From a virus, in IMG/VR virus record IMGVR_UViG_3300031951_001307, positions 1-22,352 of that record: a DNA stretch of 22,352 bases. The stretch is one strand, 5' to 3'. Position 1 is the first letter of the stretch. Each line of letters opens with the position of its first letter. Shown in pieces: positions 2,578 to 21,197 of this stretch. The notes below the pieces were generated by a model. That model searched no databases. It worked only from the letters and a program-made list of their open reading frames with translations, and was not told where the DNA came from. A program made the position numbers and the translations under genes.

Positions 2578-3591
2578 ATGAAATTAGCCTCAATAGAAGT
2601 CATTAAAAATATACGCAACCACCCTAATGCAGATTCTTTAGATATTGCTGAAGTTTTGGGGTGGCAAGTAGTTGTTAAAAGAGGTACTCACCAAGAGGGT
2701 GATAAGATTGTATTTGTTACTATTGATAGTATTGTACCTCATTATACTTGGACAAATTTTCTAGCAGATCCTAAAAATCCGGATAAACCAATCAGAATCA
2801 AAAATATTAAACTTAGAGGAGAATATAGTTCAGGGTTGGTAATTTCATTAAACGAGTTTTCAGCTTCGCCATTTAAAGATTATGAAATAGGTACAGACCT
2901 CACCGAAATAATAGGTGTTACAAAGTATATAAAAGAGGTTCCTGCTAACCTTTCAGGTGAAACTGCTGGAGATTTTCCTACTCACATTGCATCAAAAACA
3001 GATGAAGACAATGGATTAAACGATCCCGAATTGGTCAATAAAGTTTTATATCATGAACCTTTTCTTACAGTTACACAAAAATTAGATGGAAGTTCTATAA
3101 CATTAATTGTAGAGAATGGGGTACTTTCTGGAGTTTGTACTAGAAATTTTTCTAAAAAGGAAAATGAAAATAATGCTTTCTGGAAAGCGGCCAGAAAACT
3201 TATTATTCCAGAGAATTGGACAGGCATAATTCAAGGTGAACTTTGCGGAAACGGCATTCAACGCAATCAACTCAAATTAGAAGATATTAAAATTTTTGTA
3301 TTTCAAATCAAAACAAATGACAAATATATGACATACGATGAAATGAAAGATTTTTGTCTCAATCAATTGAAATGCGATGTCGTTCCTTTAATTTGCCATC
3401 TTGATGTTAGTGCTACAGTAAAATTATGGGCCAATCCTCTACAAAAACTACAAGAAGTAGCAGACAAACAAAAATACCTTAGCGGACTTGATGCAGAAGG
3501 AATAGTGGTTCGTCCGCAAAGTTATCCCAAGTCATTTGGATCGCGTAGACCATTTGGTTTCAAATTGATAAATCGAAATTATAAAGATTAA
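2578..3591 (+). CDS. RNA ligase, Rnl5/DraRnl-like
   Basis: 337 residues with the two-part layout of the Deinococcus DraRnl (Rnl5) family. The N-terminal OB-like domain (about 1-115) carries the signature HPNADSLDIAEVLGWQVVVK and IKLRGEYSSGL. The C-terminal nucleotidyltransferase domain carries motif I KLDG at 168-171 (Lys168 is the predicted AMP-accepting residue), CTRNFSKK near 187, motif III GELCG with Glu221, IIIa FVFQI at 240-244, motif IV AEGIVVR with Glu307, and motif V FKLIN with Lys329. All motifs are intact, so an active ATP-dependent ligase is likely. Known members seal nicks bearing a 3'-OH/5'-phosphate in RNA-containing duplexes. It starts a unit just after a strong terminator and has no late box, which fits early expression. 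Inferred role: repair of host-cleaved tRNA or other RNA. Confidence 0.9.
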   Translation: MKLASIEVIKNIRNHPNADSLDIAEVLGWQVVVKRGTHQEGDKIVFVTIDSIVPHYTWTNFLADPKNPDKPIRIKNIKLRGEYSSGLVISLNEFSASPFKDYEIGTDLTEIIGVTKYIKEVPANLSGETAGDFPTHIASKTDEDNGLNDPELVNKVLYHEPFLTVTQKLDGSSITLIVENGVLSGVCTRNFSKKENENNAFWKAARKLIIPENWTGIIQGELCGNGIQRNQLKLEDIKIFVFQIKTNDKYMTYDEMKDFCLNQLKCDVVPLICHLDVSATVKLWANPLQKLQEVADKQKYLSGLDAEGIVVRPQSYPKSFGSRRPFGFKLINRNYKD

Positions 3592-12629: not shown

Positions 12630-12637
12630 TATTTATA
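12630..12637 (-). promoter_or_regulatory. T4-type late promoter box TATAAATA
   Basis: Exact T4 late consensus on the minus strand, 22 bases before the ATG of the membrane protein at 12607. It overlaps the first base of the rightward gene at 12637. Confidence 0.5.
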
Positions 12638-13047
12638 TGAAATTTGATCATTTGTACAACCAGGTTTTTTTAATTGAACAGGATGAAGAAGTTCCTGAAC
12701 AAACTCCGGAAGATGAAATTGCATCACCTGAAGGTGGTGTCGCTACTCCTGATAGTATTAATGTAGAACCTGCCCCGGTATTAGGGGGAACTGATGCTAG
12801 CGGTATTCAAACATATAAAACCCAATTACAGGAATTTGCGGATTCTATGCAAAACACAGATACCGAATGCCTGCAAAAATTGGTTAATGATTTAGATCGT
12901 CCTGGTAGTCTTTTTATGGGTATTTCTAGAGAATTGTCTTCTCGCATTATTAAGATTGCTGGAGATGCTAAGGAAATTGTTACTATTTTAGATGGTTTTG
13001 TTATTAACTCGGCAAAGCGTAAAAGAGACATTGCTGCAGGTCAGTAA
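12637..13047 (+). CDS. Virion-like protein with capsid-targeting-like N-terminus
   Basis: 136 residues. MKFDHLYNQVFLIEQ begins with the recurrent MKFD.L peptide; L-I-E at 12-14 would be a cleavage site of T4 prohead-protease type. An acidic, Pro/Gly-rich spacer (15-52) follows, then a helical domain (about 58-136) with CLQKLVNDLDRPGSLF and a basic end (NSAKRKRDIAAGQ). No enzyme motif is recognised. It has a late-type box immediately upstream. Inferred: a packaged or head-associated protein. The spacer is of a kind commonly lost when such proteins are processed. Confidence 0.75.
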   Translation: MKFDHLYNQVFLIEQDEEVPEQTPEDEIASPEGGVATPDSINVEPAPVLGGTDASGIQTYKTQLQEFADSMQNTDTECLQKLVNDLDRPGSLFMGISRELSSRIIKIAGDAKEIVTILDGFVINSAKRKRDIAAGQ

Positions 13048-14116: not shown

Positions 14117-14332
14117 ATGAACAATTTCAATCAATTTTATAATCAAGTAGTCAATGAAAATTTAGAATCTTCACAGATTGCTGAAATTTTCCACAAAATT
14201 ATTACCACACAAGAATTTGCAAGTTGGTATACAAGAGAGTTCGAAGACTATGTTCAAGGAGAAGAAAATGCTCCTTCAAGAGAACAAATTATTTCAAAAC
14301 TACAGGGACTCATTTCCCGTTACATGAAGTAA
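14117..14332 (+). CDS. Small virion-like protein, 71 residues, targeting-like N-terminus
   Basis: MNNFNQFYNQVVNENLES begins with the recurrent 'M..F(D/N).(L/F)YNQV' peptide, closest to that of the gene at 12637 (HLYNQVFLIE versus QFYNQVVNE). The rest is a helical bundle-like sequence (IAEIFHKIITTQEFASWYTREFEDYV...). It has a late box 8 bases upstream and no Shine-Dalgarno. It ends 1 base from the oppositely oriented gene 14334-14567. The two stop regions form the palindrome AAGTAA-T-TTACTT. Inferred: head-associated protein. Confidence 0.7.
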   Translation: MNNFNQFYNQVVNENLESSQIAEIFHKIITTQEFASWYTREFEDYVQGEENAPSREQIISKLQGLISRYMK

Positions 14333-14571: not shown

Positions 14572-15855
14572 TTAAGTGACACCAGCGAAAGCTTTTCCTG
14601 CTTGTCCTGCCGCTGCTAAAGCTTGTCCAGTCTTTTTAATCAATTCACCTGCACCCATACGAGATTTGGTATACTCTGCTACCTTACTCAAAGCTTGAGA
14701 TAGAGCAGTAGCTTCAGGTGTTTTTAATTGGGATATTTGTGAAACCTTTAATGGTGTTATTGTAATTTCTTTATCAGTTTCTTCTATCTTATTAGCATTA
14801 ACGACTTTAAATTTTTTAAATTTTATAGGTTGTCCACTAAAATATAAAATTCTGTTTGGTATATCTTGTAATTCTTTTTGTTTAAGATCTTTTGTTACTT
14901 GTGGTGATATTTGTTTATTATTAAAATTACTTGCCTGTCTTGCAGTTCTACTAGCTGCTATATTTCTAAGAACCTGATTTTTATCTGCTGGTTGTTGTTG
15001 AACTGGTTGTGATGATATTTGATTGGCTCTGGCTAAACCTGCTTGAAGAGCTGAAGTGAGTGGTGCTTCATTTAAAATATCATCAACCCACATTGTAAAG
15101 CTTTCTAAAAAACCTCCTAATTGTTCTGGGGATAATTTTATTCTAGCCATTTCACTAGCATAAAATTGTTTGGCTGCTTTGGCAATTTCTATGAGATTAT
15201 CAATGTAAAATTTATCAACCGCTTCAAAATCACTAGTAAATCTTTTCGCTCCTGATTCATATTGTTCAGGATTTTTAAATACGTCATTAATAAGGTTAGC
15301 AAATGGAGTAGTGGGACTTTTAAGTTTTGCTACTCTTGTAAAAAATCCTATACGTTTATTTATAATTTTTTGAACAGCAGGGATAATAAAATCATTACCA
15401 TATTCATTTTGTAAAGCATCAGCACCTTTTTGACCAGCAGAAGTTTCAGAACGAACTTTTAAATCTGCTATATTTTTATTGGTAAGTTCCCATTGACTTT
15501 TGGTGGTCGGATTTAACAATAAAATCTTTTTAACTAAAGGTAAATTAGCAAAGTTTGTATTATTAGTTAATAAATTTTTAAATTCATTGACGTCTTTTGG
15601 TTTAGGATTCATGGAGTCATAAAAAGTCTTCATGAAATCTAAAATTCTAATTTTATTATAATTTTTTAAACCATCAGTCTCTGAAATTCTTGCGTCGTCT
15701 AATAAATCAAAAAAATCTGAGATATCTTCATCAGTAATATCAATACCAAAAAGTTCTCTATGTTTATTAATAATTTTCTGAAACCAGTCAGGTACACCAA
15801 CAACACCAGCTTCATTTAATAGAACTTTTTCTACTAATGTATCAAAATTAACCAT
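14572..15855 (-). CDS. Large virion-like protein with targeting-like N-terminus, function unknown
   Basis: 427 residues. MVNFDTLVEKVLLNEAG is a clear member of the N-terminal peptide family (L-N-E at 13-15, cut site before Ala16). The body is helical and Lys/Asp-rich, with a segment GVPDWFQKIINKHRELFGIDI (20-40). A Gln/Pro/Ser-rich spacer lies near 285-300, and there is an Ala/Gly-rich C-terminus (QALAAAGQAGKAFAGVT). There is no catalytic motif and no membrane segment. ATAAATA lies 13 bases upstream of the ATG. Size, promoter and peptide together suggest a major internal head protein or a packaged DNA-associated protein, but I cannot match it to a known core or scaffold protein. Confidence 0.75.
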   Translation of the reverse strand: MVNFDTLVEKVLLNEAGVVGVPDWFQKIINKHRELFGIDITDEDISDFFDLLDDARISETDGLKNYNKIRILDFMKTFYDSMNPKPKDVNEFKNLLTNNTNFANLPLVKKILLLNPTTKSQWELTNKNIADLKVRSETSAGQKGADALQNEYGNDFIIPAVQKIINKRIGFFTRVAKLKSPTTPFANLINDVFKNPEQYESGAKRFTSDFEAVDKFYIDNLIEIAKAAKQFYASEMARIKLSPEQLGGFLESFTMWVDDILNEAPLTSALQAGLARANQISSQPVQQQPADKNQVLRNIAASRTARQASNFNNKQISPQVTKDLKQKELQDIPNRILYFSGQPIKFKKFKVVNANKIEETDKEITITPLKVSQISQLKTPEATALSQALSKVAEYTKSRMGAGELIKKTGQALAAAGQAGKAFAGVT

Positions 15856-16510: not shown

Positions 16511-17260
16511 TCAGACCTTGAGCGCCATATTCCACAGACAAAGATGTAAACGCGGACTAAAATTAACATGCATGGCTTTAGCATATTCAGCAACAGCCGG
16601 TGCTTTCTCGATGTGTTCTTCTCGTGATCCACAACATGGCATAAACCAAATACGATTCAAAGGAACATTAATTCCTTCATGATCATTTACATATTTTCTC
16701 CAAATTTCTTCAATGTCTCTGTCTGAAGTAATAACAAACTTAAATCCTGAATTATGATCAACATGCCAACCAAGAACTTCTGGCTTATATGTTTTTTCTT
16801 CAGGATCACCGTTGGTCGTCAATTTAGGAGAAGTAGTAAAGGTAGCTTTAAATTCATCAACCCAACGATTGTCTGGTTGAATAGTTGCGTTCGTTTCGAA
16901 GTCAATACGAGGCAAAAACTCATACTTCTTTACAAAGCTCTCGATAAACAAAAGAAGACCTTTTTGCGAAACCATAGGTTCACCTCCAGTCAATTTAAAA
17001 ATTGCATTGCATTTAAGATGTTCAATGTAATTTCGTTCTTCCATGTATTGAAAGATTTCTTCAAAAGTCATTTTATTCTTCACTGACCAAGAAATAAAAG
17101 AATCACACCCATTTGGTGAATCCTCTGAAATAAATCCTTTGCAAGTAAGATTGCACATAGACAATCTCATAAAGACTGAGGGTTGTCCTACATATTCACC
17201 TTCTCCTTCAATGGTGTAGAAAATTTTATCGTCACTGAGATATAGGTAATTAGTGTTCAT
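16511..17260 (-). CDS. queE: 7-carboxy-7-deazaguanine synthase QueE (radical SAM)
   Basis: 249 residues. The N-terminus IFYTIEGEGEYVGQPSVFMRLSMCNLTC is typical of QueE. Radical SAM cysteines are Cys36, Cys40 and Cys52, spaced C-x3-C-x11-C rather than the usual C-x3-C-x2-C. The third Cys is in GCDSF, which corresponds to the family's W/CD(T/S). KLTGGEP (89-95) is the SAM-binding motif, then DFETNA (120-125) and SPK (144-146). QueE converts 6-carboxytetrahydropterin (the QueD product) to 7-carboxy-7-deazaguanine, precursor of preQ0. QueD lies two genes upstream, so the pair supplies a deazaguanine pathway. QueC, FolE and a DNA-inserting enzyme are not in this window. In phages, such genes serve to modify DNA guanines against restriction, or to enhance tRNA queuosine. 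Confidence 0.9.
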   Translation of the reverse strand: MNTNYLYLSDDKIFYTIEGEGEYVGQPSVFMRLSMCNLTCKGFISEDSPNGCDSFISWSVKNKMTFEEIFQYMEERNYIEHLKCNAIFKLTGGEPMVSQKGLLLFIESFVKKYEFLPRIDFETNATIQPDNRWVDEFKATFTTSPKLTTNGDPEEKTYKPEVLGWHVDHNSGFKFVITSDRDIEEIWRKYVNDHEGINVPLNRIWFMPCCGSREEHIEKAPAVAEYAKAMHVNFSPRLHLCLWNMALKV

Positions 17261-17263
17261 AAT

Positions 17264-17476
17264 TTAAGAAATAACAAATTTATATAATAACGTCATAATA
17301 ACAATACTCAACCACCCAAAAGGATGAAGGAATAACATAAAAAATATAATAAACAAAAAAGCAAAGAAGGTGGAAAAAGTGGTAGTTAAAAAGGACCAAA
17401 AATTAGCTTTATTTGGTTCACTTTTAGGAACAACTTTTTCAAATGTAGTATTGATAATTTCTAATTGTTTCTTCAT
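17264..17476 (-). CDS. Small single-pass membrane protein between queD and queE
   Basis: 70 residues, with a soluble N-terminus (MKKQLEIINTTFEKVVPKSEP) and then a long hydrophobic stretch (about 27-66, Phe-rich, with HPFGW) long enough for one or two membrane segments. Its ATG overlaps the TGA of queD (ATGA, 4 bases), and its stop is 3 bases before the queE start, so it is translationally coupled inside the queD-queE unit. No known family. Whether it has anything to do with deazaguanine synthesis is uncertain. Confidence 0.65.
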   Translation of the reverse strand: MKKQLEIINTTFEKVVPKSEPNKANFWSFLTTTFSTFFAFLFIIFFMLFLHPFGWLSIVIMTLLYKFVIS

Positions 17477-17907
17477 TCCTGGTATAATGCACTATTCAAG
17501 TCGTGTTCCCAAACTTCTACTTTAACAACCCTGCAACGATTATTGGTTAATTTTTTAATATGTTCATTAGCCTTTTTAAAACACCATTCTGCTGTCTTTT
17601 CAATACCAACGTCTGCCATAATTCGAAGATCACACCCACCTGCTTCATGAAGTTCTTGAAAAAGAGATACCAATGGATCATCAACAGCAACACATAGTGT
17701 GTGATCAAATTGTTTTTGGAGTTCTGCTTTTAATTCTTTAAGACCTCCAAAATTAACCACCCAATTACGATCGTCAAGTTCCCCCTCAAACCAAAATTTA
17801 GCTTTTAATTGATACCCATGTACTTTACAACAATGTGTATCAGTTGCTTTCCATTGACGAAACGCACAAGAACCTAACTCTATAATTTTAGTAGAAATAT
17901 AAGCCAT
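17473..17907 (-). CDS. queD: 6-carboxytetrahydropterin synthase-like protein QueD (variant)
   Basis: 144 residues. The core reads SCAFRQWKATDTHCCKVHGYQLKA, then LDDRNWVVNFGGLK, FDHTL (67-71), GIEKTAEW (101-108) and VEVWEHDLNSALY (130-142). The C-x3-H-G (Cys26, His30), DHT and terminal Glu133 fit the QueD/PTPS fold. Two usual zinc ligands differ: the first ligand region reads FRQW instead of (A/S)AH, and HGH is HGY (Tyr32). I recall a phage/proteobacterial subfamily with 'FRQW...HC...HGYxL...DDRNWVVDFGGLK', so this may be a true variant rather than decay. Product: 6-carboxytetrahydropterin from 7,8-dihydroneopterin triphosphate, feeding QueE. It precedes a coupled membrane-protein gene and queE. 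Confidence 0.85.
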   Translation of the reverse strand: MAYISTKIIELGSCAFRQWKATDTHCCKVHGYQLKAKFWFEGELDDRNWVVNFGGLKELKAELQKQFDHTLCVAVDDPLVSLFQELHEAGGCDLRIMADVGIEKTAEWCFKKANEHIKKLTNNRCRVVKVEVWEHDLNSALYQE

Positions 17908-18230: not shown

Positions 18231-20831
18231 TTACTTTACTACTTGAATAAATTTTTTACCCAATTCTTCTAAAGTTTTTGGTCCTAAAACAAAACGAATG
18301 ATAGAGAGATACGGATTTTGTTGATCTGAAATCCTCTTGTTTAATTCAGAAACAAATTGATCAATTCTTCTCTTTTCTGCCTCAATGGCTTTTTTAGTAT
18401 CTTCTAAAGCTTTAGAATCTTCTTTATTAATCTTAGTTAAAGCTTCTTCAATATTCTTTTTATAATTGTTTAAAGAATTAGTCAAGTCAGAAACCATTTG
18501 TTTAGCTTCTTGAAATTGAACTTCTTCAGAAGCATCACCGTAAAGAACATCTAACATTTCATCCATAGAACCAAAACGAGAACCTTTAGTTTCCATGGCA
18601 TTGGTTAATTTTTGAACTTGCTTATCATCTAAAATAAAAATATCGGCATTTTTTAATACATCTTCTTGAAGTTGTTTGTAAAGATTTTTACGATAGTCTT
18701 TGAGTGCATCTACTCCAGCCCACTGTTCTGCTCTTCTTCTACCGAAACCTTCTAAATCTACTAATTTAGCAATAGCTCCTGTCTCCATATTACGGATAAT
18801 AGCTCCTTCAATTTCAGAAGCACCTAAAGAAGAAGGTACAGTTCCTAGAGAACCTAAGAGAGTTTTTTTAATAAGAGATTTTAAAATTTCAAATTCTTTA
18901 ACCGCTTTAGCTTTCATTTCAGCTTCATTGCCTGTTCTTTTGCGTGAAGCCATTACTGCCATATTTTCTGCACTACAGGTTTTTTGAATTTGGGATTTGA
19001 TGGTTTCATCAATGTCTAACGCTAAAGGTTTTTTATCATAAAATTTCCAGTCAGTGGAATTATTAAGAAGTTCTACAATTTTATCTTTGATAACTTTGCC
19101 TTCTTTGGTGGTGGTAATATCAGTACCTTTAGGTGAATCTAATTTAACTATTCCAAAAACTACGACCGCTCCATTGCCAATTAAATCTTCTGCATAAGGA
19201 ATAACATTCATATGTGCCTTACTGAACATCTCACCAAAAATCTGAAGAGGAGAACCAACCATCCCACTTAATTGTTTTAAAAGATTTTCTAATTTACTTT
19301 TTTGTAAAGTTTCTAAAAATCTGCCAAATCCTTCAAAAATATCATTATCATACATTTTGGCTTGTTGATAAAATTCAGAAGGATCGGTAACAGGATTTCC
19401 TTTTTTAGATTTGACAAAAATTTGTCCTTCCTCTGTCAACCCAAAAGAAACATTAGAGCCATCATACTTTTCAGAAACTTCCCAAGCTCCTCCACTAAAA
19501 AGATTACAAAAATCTTTAGCGGTCATCTGATCAACGTGGGGAATAGAAACCATTTTAACGGCTTCGTTCAAGCTCTCACCAAATAACTGAACATACTCTT
19601 CTGTATTCACATTGCCAAAGAAAGGTTTAAGGTATTCAAAAGCACTTTTGGCTTCTTGATTAGAAATTTGCCCTTGAGTACGACCAGTAGATGGGTTGGG
19701 AAGCTTAGACTTGATATTTTTTACTAAATTGTCCCAAAGTTTTTGTTTACGTTCTTGATCGAAAGTAGAAACCAATTCTGCCATTTTAACCACGTGTTTT
19801 AAATGATCAGGATTAGCAAAACCTAAAATAGCGGCTAGAGTATCCAAATCTTCATAGGTTACCGGGTCTACTTCTTTTCCTCTAACAAACCTTTGTAATT
19901 GATCGAATTTTACTCCACCTTTACTGTAATTTTTAGAAACTCCATCAACCATCCAATTAATTTTATACGCTAAACCATCTCCACCTAGAGTATAGCGAAT
20001 ATCATAAGTGATCTCGCCGTTCTTTTTATACTTTTCTACAAAATTTTTATACTCTTCGGTGTTTTTAATGGCTTGATCTAAAATTTCCGTCTTCTTGGGA
20101 TTGATAGAAGTAGAAGCCGCAATTCCTCTTACTAGAAGATCTCTTACTACTCCTTTAATACCTTGAGCAATATCTGCCATACTAGCAAATTGCGAAACAC
20201 CAAAATATTTTTCCTTACCTTTAATATTGACAATATCAATTTGAATAACATTATTGGAATTTCCAACAACTACCGCAGTATTAACTTCTTCAGCGGCTGT
20301 GTCTGCTGCGTATTTTCCTGGAAACTCTGAATTTAAAAAATCTTTAATTTGTTTGGTTGTTACTCCCTCTTGAAAGTGTACATCTAAATCAATATCTCCA
20401 AAATCTTTTTTAGTAGATAAAGCTTTTTGAATAATTTCTTGAGTTTCTATTTCATTAGGTTCGGGAGCTCTAATGCCTGCTTTGATAGCAAATAAACGAC
20501 TAGAACCTAGATAGTAAGAAGGTTCTCGGGAATCCACAAATCCTTTACTTCTTAAAAGTGTGAGAAGTCTTTGTATTTCGTCTATGACTTCCGGTGTAGG
20601 ATTGGCACGAACGTATTTTAAATTTTCATTACCCGTATTCTTTTTTAAATCTACGATAAGATTTTCGGCGGCTTGTCCACCTTCATTCAATAAACTACCT
20701 TTAAAGTGAGATTGAAAATTAATCTTACTTTCTCTTATTACTTTAGATTTTTTATAATAAGGTTTTTTCTTTTCTAGAACAGGAGATTTAGGTCCTTTTT
20801 TAAAAAAATTACTGAATGAATTTTTTAACAT
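18231..20831 (-). CDS. Nucleotidyltransferase-ligase fusion, probably head-packaged
   Basis: 866 residues, with two nucleotidyl-transfer modules. (1) A Pol-beta-type nucleotidyltransferase at about 80-260, with YYLGSSRLF (Gly109-Ser111), FGDIDLDV (Asp146/Asp148/Asp150) and IQIDIV (Asp199). (2) A ligase domain at about 430-700: motif I EKYDGSN (Lys455-Tyr-Asp-Gly458), FVKSKKG (472-478), GEMF (Glu534), VVVFGIV (556-562), motif IV IEGAIIR (Glu675), motif V AKLVD (Lys689). The C-terminal 770-866 region is coiled-coil-like. The N-terminus is basic, and INFQSHFKGSLLNEGG (37-52) resembles the targeting peptide with a cut after LNE50. A second LNE (421-423) falls between the two modules. A short gene with a targeting peptide precedes it by 6 bases. 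Predicted: RNA or DNA end repair (nucleotide addition plus sealing); specificity unknown. Confidence 0.75.
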   Translation of the reverse strand: MLKNSFSNFFKKGPKSPVLEKKKPYYKKSKVIRESKINFQSHFKGSLLNEGGQAAENLIVDLKKNTGNENLKYVRANPTPEVIDEIQRLLTLLRSKGFVDSREPSYYLGSSRLFAIKAGIRAPEPNEIETQEIIQKALSTKKDFGDIDLDVHFQEGVTTKQIKDFLNSEFPGKYAADTAAEEVNTAVVVGNSNNVIQIDIVNIKGKEKYFGVSQFASMADIAQGIKGVVRDLLVRGIAASTSINPKKTEILDQAIKNTEEYKNFVEKYKKNGEITYDIRYTLGGDGLAYKINWMVDGVSKNYSKGGVKFDQLQRFVRGKEVDPVTYEDLDTLAAILGFANPDHLKHVVKMAELVSTFDQERKQKLWDNLVKNIKSKLPNPSTGRTQGQISNQEAKSAFEYLKPFFGNVNTEEYVQLFGESLNEAVKMVSIPHVDQMTAKDFCNLFSGGAWEVSEKYDGSNVSFGLTEEGQIFVKSKKGNPVTDPSEFYQQAKMYDNDIFEGFGRFLETLQKSKLENLLKQLSGMVGSPLQIFGEMFSKAHMNVIPYAEDLIGNGAVVVFGIVKLDSPKGTDITTTKEGKVIKDKIVELLNNSTDWKFYDKKPLALDIDETIKSQIQKTCSAENMAVMASRKRTGNEAEMKAKAVKEFEILKSLIKKTLLGSLGTVPSSLGASEIEGAIIRNMETGAIAKLVDLEGFGRRRAEQWAGVDALKDYRKNLYKQLQEDVLKNADIFILDDKQVQKLTNAMETKGSRFGSMDEMLDVLYGDASEEVQFQEAKQMVSDLTNSLNNYKKNIEEALTKINKEDSKALEDTKKAIEAEKRRIDQFVSELNKRISDQQNPYLSIIRFVLGPKTLEELGKKFIQVVK

Positions 20832-20837
20832 TTTTAA

Positions 20838-21125
20838 TTATTTGGCAGTGACTATACCTAATTTAGCTAAAGCAGCTAATACCGTATCTGGGTTTTGAGC
20901 TTTTACTAATTCAGCGACGACCGGATTTTTAGCATCTACTTTTTGGTTATTGTTAACCGGGGTAGTTGGTTTAATTGGGGTGACCGGCTGAACAGGTTTA
21001 TTTGGCTGCGAGGGTTGTGGAGTGGTGCTTGTGGTATTGGTCGCAGCAGGTGTACCCGGAGTTGTTTGGGGTTGTGTTTGATTTAAATTACTAGTTAGCT
21101 CATTAAGAATTTGGTCGAATTTCAT
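20838..21125 (-). CDS. Thr/Pro-rich virion-like protein with MKFD N-terminus
   Basis: 95 residues in three parts. MKFDQILNELTSNLNQ (1-16) is a targeting-like peptide with L-N-E at 7-9. A low-complexity Thr/Pro/Gln/Asn linker follows (17-65). The C-terminus is a short helical domain (NPVVAELVKAQNPDTVLAALAKLGIVTAK). It is the first gene after a late-type box (21131-21137) and is followed 6 bases later by the giant fusion enzyme. The two are probably co-transcribed late. Inferred: a packaged accessory protein or tether; no enzyme motif. Confidence 0.7.
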   Translation of the reverse strand: MKFDQILNELTSNLNQTQPQTTPGTPAATNTTSTTPQPSQPNKPVQPVTPIKPTTPVNNNQKVDAKNPVVAELVKAQNPDTVLAALAKLGIVTAK

Positions 21126-21197
21126 GTTATTATTTATCGAGATCCTTTCTCTTTAAAAATTAATTTTAATCCCCCAGCCCCAAACCTTTAAATCCAT
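21126..21197. other. Intergenic gap with G-rich tract and late promoter
   Basis: 72 bases between the genes at 21125 and 21198. On the minus strand it contains TTTGGGGCTGGGGGATT (C-rich on plus at about 21170-21184), unusual for this AT-rich sequence, then an AT-rich stretch and the ATAAATA box. No convincing terminator stem is visible. Confidence 0.4.
21131..21137 (-). promoter_or_regulatory. Late-type promoter box ATAAATA
   Basis: The minus strand reads CGATAAATAATAACATG, with the box 5 bases before the ATG at 21123-21125. It probably drives the Thr/Pro-rich protein and the 866-residue enzyme, with a nearly leaderless transcript. Confidence 0.55.

Follow-up and report, generated by a model that had tools for sequence, protein, structure and literature searches.

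A virus fragment of 22,352 bases (here called the window, all positions being counted along it unless another contig is named) encodes a single polypeptide that joins a predicted Pol-β-type nucleotidyltransferase (NTase) to a predicted ATP-dependent RNA ligase, behind a predicted capsid-targeting propeptide. The fusion has about an even chance of being a late internal head protein of a T4-like phage, split into two packaged enzymes that are injected and repair RNA. The precursor would be made late, and the N-terminal propeptide would target it into the prohead core. A prohead protease of the gp21 family would then remove the propeptide after E50 and would probably also cut the linker after E423, leaving two free enzymes inside the capsid, a Pol-β-type NTase of ~42 kDa and an ATP-dependent RNA ligase of ~50 kDa. 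Both would be injected together with the DNA and would repair RNA, the likeliest substrate being tRNA that host anticodon nucleases have cleaved and trimmed; the transferase would restore the lost nucleotides, and the ligase would seal the 3'-OH/5'-phosphate ends. The ORF, the ligase family, the invariant active-site residues, the propeptide and linker pattern, the protease gene in relatives and the late-type promoter are read from sequence, while packaging, both cuts, injection, RNA as substrate and a counter-defence purpose are predictions.

The fusion protein and its two predicted enzyme domains

The fusion gene (18231-20831, minus strand; the coordinates of its parts are on the same strand) is an open reading frame of 866 codons that runs from an ATG at 20831 to 18231 without an internal stop. 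The protein, of 97.2 kDa, consists of the propeptide, the NTase, the RNA ligase and a helical C-terminal region. A preliminary description of this DNA had proposed the 866-residue frame and the motifs within it, and GSS109-111, D146/D148/D150, D199, LNE48-50, LNE421-423 and K455 (KYDG) all lie at the residues that it assigned to them. The same architecture is encoded by more than 20 contigs of uncultured viruses in IMG/VR. Queries with the whole protein, an alignment, single domains or a divergent member all led to one common set of contigs, with 56-100% identity to the respective query, and the two domains are fused on every contig that spans the junction. No standalone homologue of either domain was found among the viral contigs (IMG/VR) or bacterial genomes (GTDB), and no relatives of the fusion were found by tblastn among 50,697 named phage records or in GTDB genome contigs. 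Profile searches of T4, KVP40, HTVC008M, P-HM1, Cr30, phiW-14, BcepSaruman and others gave no match to the fusion, and PDB searches with the protein at the sequence level gave nothing meaningful. The ligase domain had weak tblastn matches (E 0.04 or worse), to genes for tail fibres and to a single Enterococcus phage gene, which were taken as chance. The earlier statement that no described enzyme has such an arrangement thus held for the phage records, GTDB contigs and open-access papers, within the limited sensitivity and coverage of these searches: the fusion, its packaging and an internal cut site were absent from the databases and open-access literature searched, a body that leaves most subscription papers outside.

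Residues 51-423 (19563-20681), with a predicted product of 41.7 kDa, form the N-terminal enzyme domain, which is probably an NTase. The hG[GS]..DxD..D signature of the Pol-β superfamily is present on fitting secondary structure in the AlphaFold2 model (pLDDT 73). The GSS of the G-S motif, GSSR109-112 (20496-20507), starts a helix; D146-I-D148-L-D150 (20382-20396), the predicted metal-binding carboxylates, form one strand (model residues 96-101); and D199 in VIQIDIVNI (20235-20237), the predicted third catalytic carboxylate, lies on another (model residues 144-152). GSSR is invariant in all members aligned there, as are the three Asp residues of the second motif and D199. No PDB fold match of the model is strong by itself, the best having E 0.03 and none an E below 0.001, yet many of them are to the Pol-β superfamily (the tRNA-processing A/CCA-adding enzyme, Trf4, TUT7, CutA, OAS1, Cid1, Pol β and Pol μ). 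Taken as a whole, this fold support is consistent. Pfam and PHROG scans of the fusion gave no NTase profile match. Identity with the known phage NTase RlaP was rejected, since a search of nine records with PF10127 was empty at E<=10; the same search was positive in control genomes and in BcepSaruman, BcepSauron and Cece. A profile-profile comparison of the NTase with RlaP gave E 0.63, with just three sequences on the RlaP side. With moderate confidence, residues 51-423 represent a Pol-β-type NTase that forms a family of its own.

Residues 424-735 (18627-19562), the predicted catalytic domain of an ATP-dependent RNA ligase, almost certainly have a ligase fold. PF09414 matches residues 450-691 (E 4.7e-7; 30.5 bits vs a gathering cutoff of 27) and is found in all 11 members scanned, although some relatives score slightly under the cutoff; the PHROG match is phrog_548. 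Ligase motifs I, III, IV and V (KYDG, FGE, EIEGAIIRN and AKLVD) are conserved among members. Motif I, KYDG455-458 with the nucleotidyl-lysine (19458-19469), and E534 of motif III in QIFGE (19230-19232) are invariant, and E675-G676 of motif IV (18804-18809) is invariant in full-length members. Motif V contains a single Lys, K689 in AIAKLVD (18765-18767), and resembles the FKLIN and FKIIN of DRB0094-type ligases in the window and in the near-complete relative G002, which also have a single Lys there. The AlphaFold2 model of the ligase is modest (pLDDT 66), and its top 50 PDB fold matches are all nucleic-acid ligases, with T4 Rnl1 and Naegleria Rnl at the top (probability 0.90-1.00) and none individually significant. 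The domain did not come above the Rnl2 or DRB0094 equivalog models. Thus, of the two active sites in the preliminary description, the Pol-β-type site is well supported by invariant motifs, the model and recurrent, singly weak fold matches, and the KxDG site at Lys455 is well supported by family and fold. Structure prediction, one of the checks suggested there, gave models of modest confidence for both domains, with no single significant fold match.

The window also encodes a second, separate RNA ligase of the DRB0094 type (2578-3591, plus strand; TIGR02306 E 3.2e-40, just under cutoff). The phage thus encodes two RNA ligases, and G002 has two more besides the fusion.

The fold matches include DNA ligases, and Pol-β and ligase folds serve DNA repair too. 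The packaged enzymes might therefore act on DNA, mending the injected genome at nicks or ends, or processing host DNA that has been cleaved. However, the sequence family of the ligase is RNA_ligase (PF09414, phrog_548) and its best fold matches are RNA ligases, and action on DNA is considered improbable. The "RNA/DNA end repair" suggested earlier is accordingly narrowed to RNA by the ligase family, with RNA as a predicted substrate.

The remaining residues, 736-866 (18234-18626), are helical and faster-evolving, as judged from the model and the alignment. Such a region could be core-binding, and T4 Rnl1 (gp63) has a second role in assembly, the promotion of tail-fibre attachment; the fusion might by analogy serve the head in structure or assembly, as part of the core or through a ligase fold whose task is not catalysis. 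This is very improbable indeed, given that the catalytic motifs of both domains are invariant down to ~60% identity, as in active enzymes.

Leader, linker and the two predicted cut sites

The prohead protease of T4, gp21, cleaves after L/I-X-E, and the propeptides of T4 have lengths of 7-65 residues (PMC9026906). In the fusion, residues 1-50 (20682-20831; pI 10.3) are a predicted capsid-targeting propeptide, as suggested by comparison of leaders among members. They end in LNE48-50 (20682-20690), the predicted protease site 1, with the cut before Gly51. In the 15 members compared, the leader upstream of an invariant GGQAA ranges from 13 to 52 aa and has little shared sequence. Examples are MINFKTYFRMLLE, MITFETYFKILIE, MSSFKSLIQSILNE, MSIFKSVLSSLLNE, MLSYKNYYKSFLRLDGVILTE and MLEEAFNSFFCKNTELLIE, and the longer leaders end in ALITE, YFLLE or SLLNE. 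Nevertheless, GGQAA is directly preceded by (L/I)xE in 15 of 15. When each of the seven leader types was shuffled, the joint probability of such endings was ~2.5e-13, a figure that is only indicative, as it treats the types as independent and ignores any shared ancestry. The short leaders MINFKTYFRMLLE and MSSFKSLIQSILNE look like T4 targeting peptides, and the second half of the leader in the window, KINFQSHFKGSLLNE, resembles the whole 13-aa leader of related contig L017, MINFKTYFRMLLE. An additional motif, IRE34, lies inside the leader of the window protein. The bare presence of [LIVM]xE is uninformative, since there are 17 in the ORF, several of them conserved within folded domains, and a count of these motifs was dropped as evidence for cleavage; it is by their position and conservation that the motifs exceed chance. 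On this pattern, the targeting-peptide-like segment ending at E50 that had been noted earlier is well supported, and residues 1-50 are very probably cleaved off.

The abundance of [LIVM]xE also suits a different explanation, in which the protein is an unpackaged, intracellular RNA repair enzyme, its N-terminus varies through ordinary drift and the xE motifs have arisen by coincidence. Indeed, the RNA repair enzymes of T4 itself work within the cell. Drift would have to explain, however, why seven dissimilar leader types share one end motif at one junction, why the gene has a late-type promoter and why neighbouring genes have similar leaders; this explanation is considered quite improbable.

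Besides the leader, only one segment of the member alignment is both hypervariable and strongly gapped. This is the linker, residues 409-423 (19563-19607), which ends EYVQLFGESLNE before the ligase; over residues 409-422 the mean identity is 0.31 with 8 gap columns, vs 0.60 and 0.88 in the flanks. Its last residues, LNE421-423 (19563-19571), are the predicted protease site 2, with the cut before Ala424. In 14 of the 15 members, AVKM follows immediately on an (L/I/V/M)xE ending (LNE, ISE, VTE, MTE, LSE, LGE, IEE or IQE), the exception being related contig L010, which reads FIEE-K-AVKM with one extra Lys after IEE. Model confidence is low on both sides of the junction (pLDDT 32 in the last block of the NTase model and below 50 in the first nine residues of the ligase model). 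The pattern is compatible with a protease site that lies exposed. The position of LNE423 just before the ligase domain is thus as described earlier, and the proposed second cut is moderately supported by a divergent linker that retains its motif; cleavage after E423 is rather more probable than its absence. The linker EYVQLFGESLNE resembles a targeting peptide, as would be expected if the ligase had once been a separately packaged protein, an origin that is conjecture.

Alternatively, the precursor might be trimmed at E50 only, in which case the head would contain a single bifunctional RNA repair enzyme of 91 kDa with both domains still connected. The fusion of the two domains in all relatives found favours coupled function, and the motif in the linker is looser than that of site 1, with V or M third back in some members and FIEE-K in L010. 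Yet this sole hypervariable internal segment still retains xE-A, and an unstructured xE site should be as accessible to the protease as site 1; retention of the joined form is considered doubtful. A packaged precursor that is cut twice predicts virion fragments starting at Gly51 and at Ala424.

Gene context and phage lineage

The gene upstream of the fusion (20838-21125, minus strand; 95 aa) ends 6 bp before the fusion start. Its product begins MKFDQILNE-LTSN, a similar peptide, in line with the earlier remark that the same targeting peptide is found there, and relatives of this gene begin MTKFDQVLNE or MTKFDQLISE. It is preceded by GATAAATAATAAC-ATG, which contains a late-type promoter motif, GATAAATA(ATAAC-ATG), at 21131-21138 (minus strand) with a spacing typical for the lineage. 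In this lineage (the near-complete relatives G001 and G002 and the upstream regions of the window), ATAAATA occurs in strong excess at 12-20 bp from the start codon that follows it, and ATAAATAA was found upstream 11 times in the window set vs 0.65 expected. The exact TATAAATA was rejected as the promoter, being at chance level in the window, and ATAAATA was found by enrichment instead. The late promoter of the preliminary description therefore stands as the ATAAATA-type motif before the upstream gene and not as the exact sequence. Because the motif resembles a T4-type late promoter, late synthesis of the fusion is likely. The usual distance of 12-20 bp between ATAAATA and the start codon is closer than expected if transcription starts downstream, and with this distance the leaders of many late transcripts may be very short.

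Three near-complete relatives, of 192-199 kb, are T4-like, with gp23 in all three. A Peptidase_S77 protease of the gp21 family is also present in all three (E 3.6e-35 to 5.5e-30), and the prohead protease implied by the preliminary description is thus found in the lineage. In the two near-complete relatives that were read, a scaffold-like gene occupies the place of gp22, beside the protease and gp23. The gp23 of G002 contains LTE-A near its N-terminus, and T4 gp23 contains LTE-AEIGG. The G002 capsid protein is ~33% identical to cyanophage gp23, which points to a distant, uncultured T4-like lineage. The 22-kb window itself contains neither the protease nor the capsid gene.

A rough targeting-peptide pattern was found six times in the window vs 0.7 expected. 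In two near-complete relatives it was found 7 times vs 4.2 expected and 8 times vs 4.1; as genome-wide support it is unconvincing there, and the support is local to the window. More genes with targeting-peptide-like N-termini lie in the window at 2227-2499, 12637-13047, 14117-14332 and 14572-15855; one such N-terminus is MVNFDTLVEKVLLNE-AGV, on a 427-aa protein without a family assignment. In related contigs, the neighbours of the fusion include other short proteins with similar leaders. Two adjacent genes of contig L009 (3132-3443 and 3451-3699) encode proteins whose first 14 residues, MSKFDAILKRIEEQ, are identical and whose bodies differ, as though leaders could be transferred as modules. 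In related contigs the gene block of the fusion also encodes a SegE-like GIY-YIG protein (L003, 4101-4520; Pfam PF19835, E 9.6e-30), with equivalents in L004, L009, L010, L017, L018, L021 and L022. Its N-terminus, GHWxLxE, which likewise ends in an xE motif, appears as GHWTLSE, GHWQLNE or GHWLINE in the first four contigs and is diverged in the rest; this protein is possibly another packaged enzyme.

There are 17 tRNA genes in G001 (L064, L065) and 29 in G002 (L072, L073), counts that are in line with tRNA-rich phages in which RNA repair is common. The window also contains homologues of QueD (17473-17907, minus strand; phrog_2389) and QueE (16511-17260, minus strand; phrog_2076), which suggests 7-deazaguanine modification of phage DNA or tRNA.

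Predicted function and comparison with known systems

Phage RNA repair enzymes are generally thought to be made after infection, and host anticodon nucleases hit translation itself. RNA repair is a fairly probable function for the fusion. A Pol-β NTase together with an RNA ligase is an established phage repair pairing, in which RlaP is predicted to act first, adding back the nucleotides lost once the anticodon loop has been cut, and the ligase then to seal the RNA (PMC7824862). T4 packages Alt and internal proteins in its head and ejects them into the host (PMC9026906). Given this pairing, the tRNA genes of the relatives and the ejection of Alt, pre-loaded RNA repair is the most likely purpose. 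In its fullest form the proposal is of a virion-delivered RNA repair polyprotein, from which head maturation would free a Pol-β enzyme of a new family and an RNA ligase that undo tRNA-cleaving defences before phage gene expression; this form is tentative and has somewhat less than an even chance of being correct. If it is true, repair enzymes carried by the virion would remove the delay of post-infection synthesis, and RNA repair would join the few enzyme activities that T4-like phages inject. It would also mean that a prohead protease processes an enzyme polyprotein, beyond stripping propeptides.

Among known systems, the fusion is like the T4 internal head proteins Alt, IPI, IPII and IPIII in its predicted cleavable N-terminal propeptide ending in L/I-X-E and in the presence of a gp21-type protease in the lineage. 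The T4 proteins likewise have L/I-X-E propeptides and are processed by gp21, and one of them, the enzyme Alt, is ejected into the host (PMC9026906). Unlike the fusion, however, they are without an NTase-ligase pair and are trimmed at their ends rather than split into two enzymes. The RlaP (PF10127) systems of jumbo phages and bacteria also couple a Pol-β-type NTase to an ATP-dependent RNA ligase, but RlaP is described as working alongside ligases, with packaging unmentioned (PMC7824862), whereas here both are in one fused polypeptide. In addition, the spacing from GS to DxD is ~36 residues in the fusion NTase vs ~12 in RlaP. With T4 Rnl1 and Rnl2, Naegleria Rnl and the DRB0094-type ligases, the fusion ligase shares motifs I, III, IV and V and PF09414; unlike them, it follows a propeptide and an NTase in one fused chain. 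Polyvalent proteins of phages and plasmids, in the parts of their published account consulted, resemble the fusion in having several enzyme domains per polypeptide, delivery to the host and a proposed proteolytic release (PMC5512222). There, release is proposed to occur by embedded, mostly zincin-like peptidase domains, and those parts of the account contain no NTase-ligase pair. In the fusion, Pfam and PHROG scans found no embedded peptidase domain, and a separate prohead protease would be the cutter. Thus, the kinds of component are already known, from targeted internal head proteins on the one hand and from the pairing of an RNA ligase with a Pol-β NTase (RlaP) on the other, whereas their fusion, packaging and two cut sites appear new.
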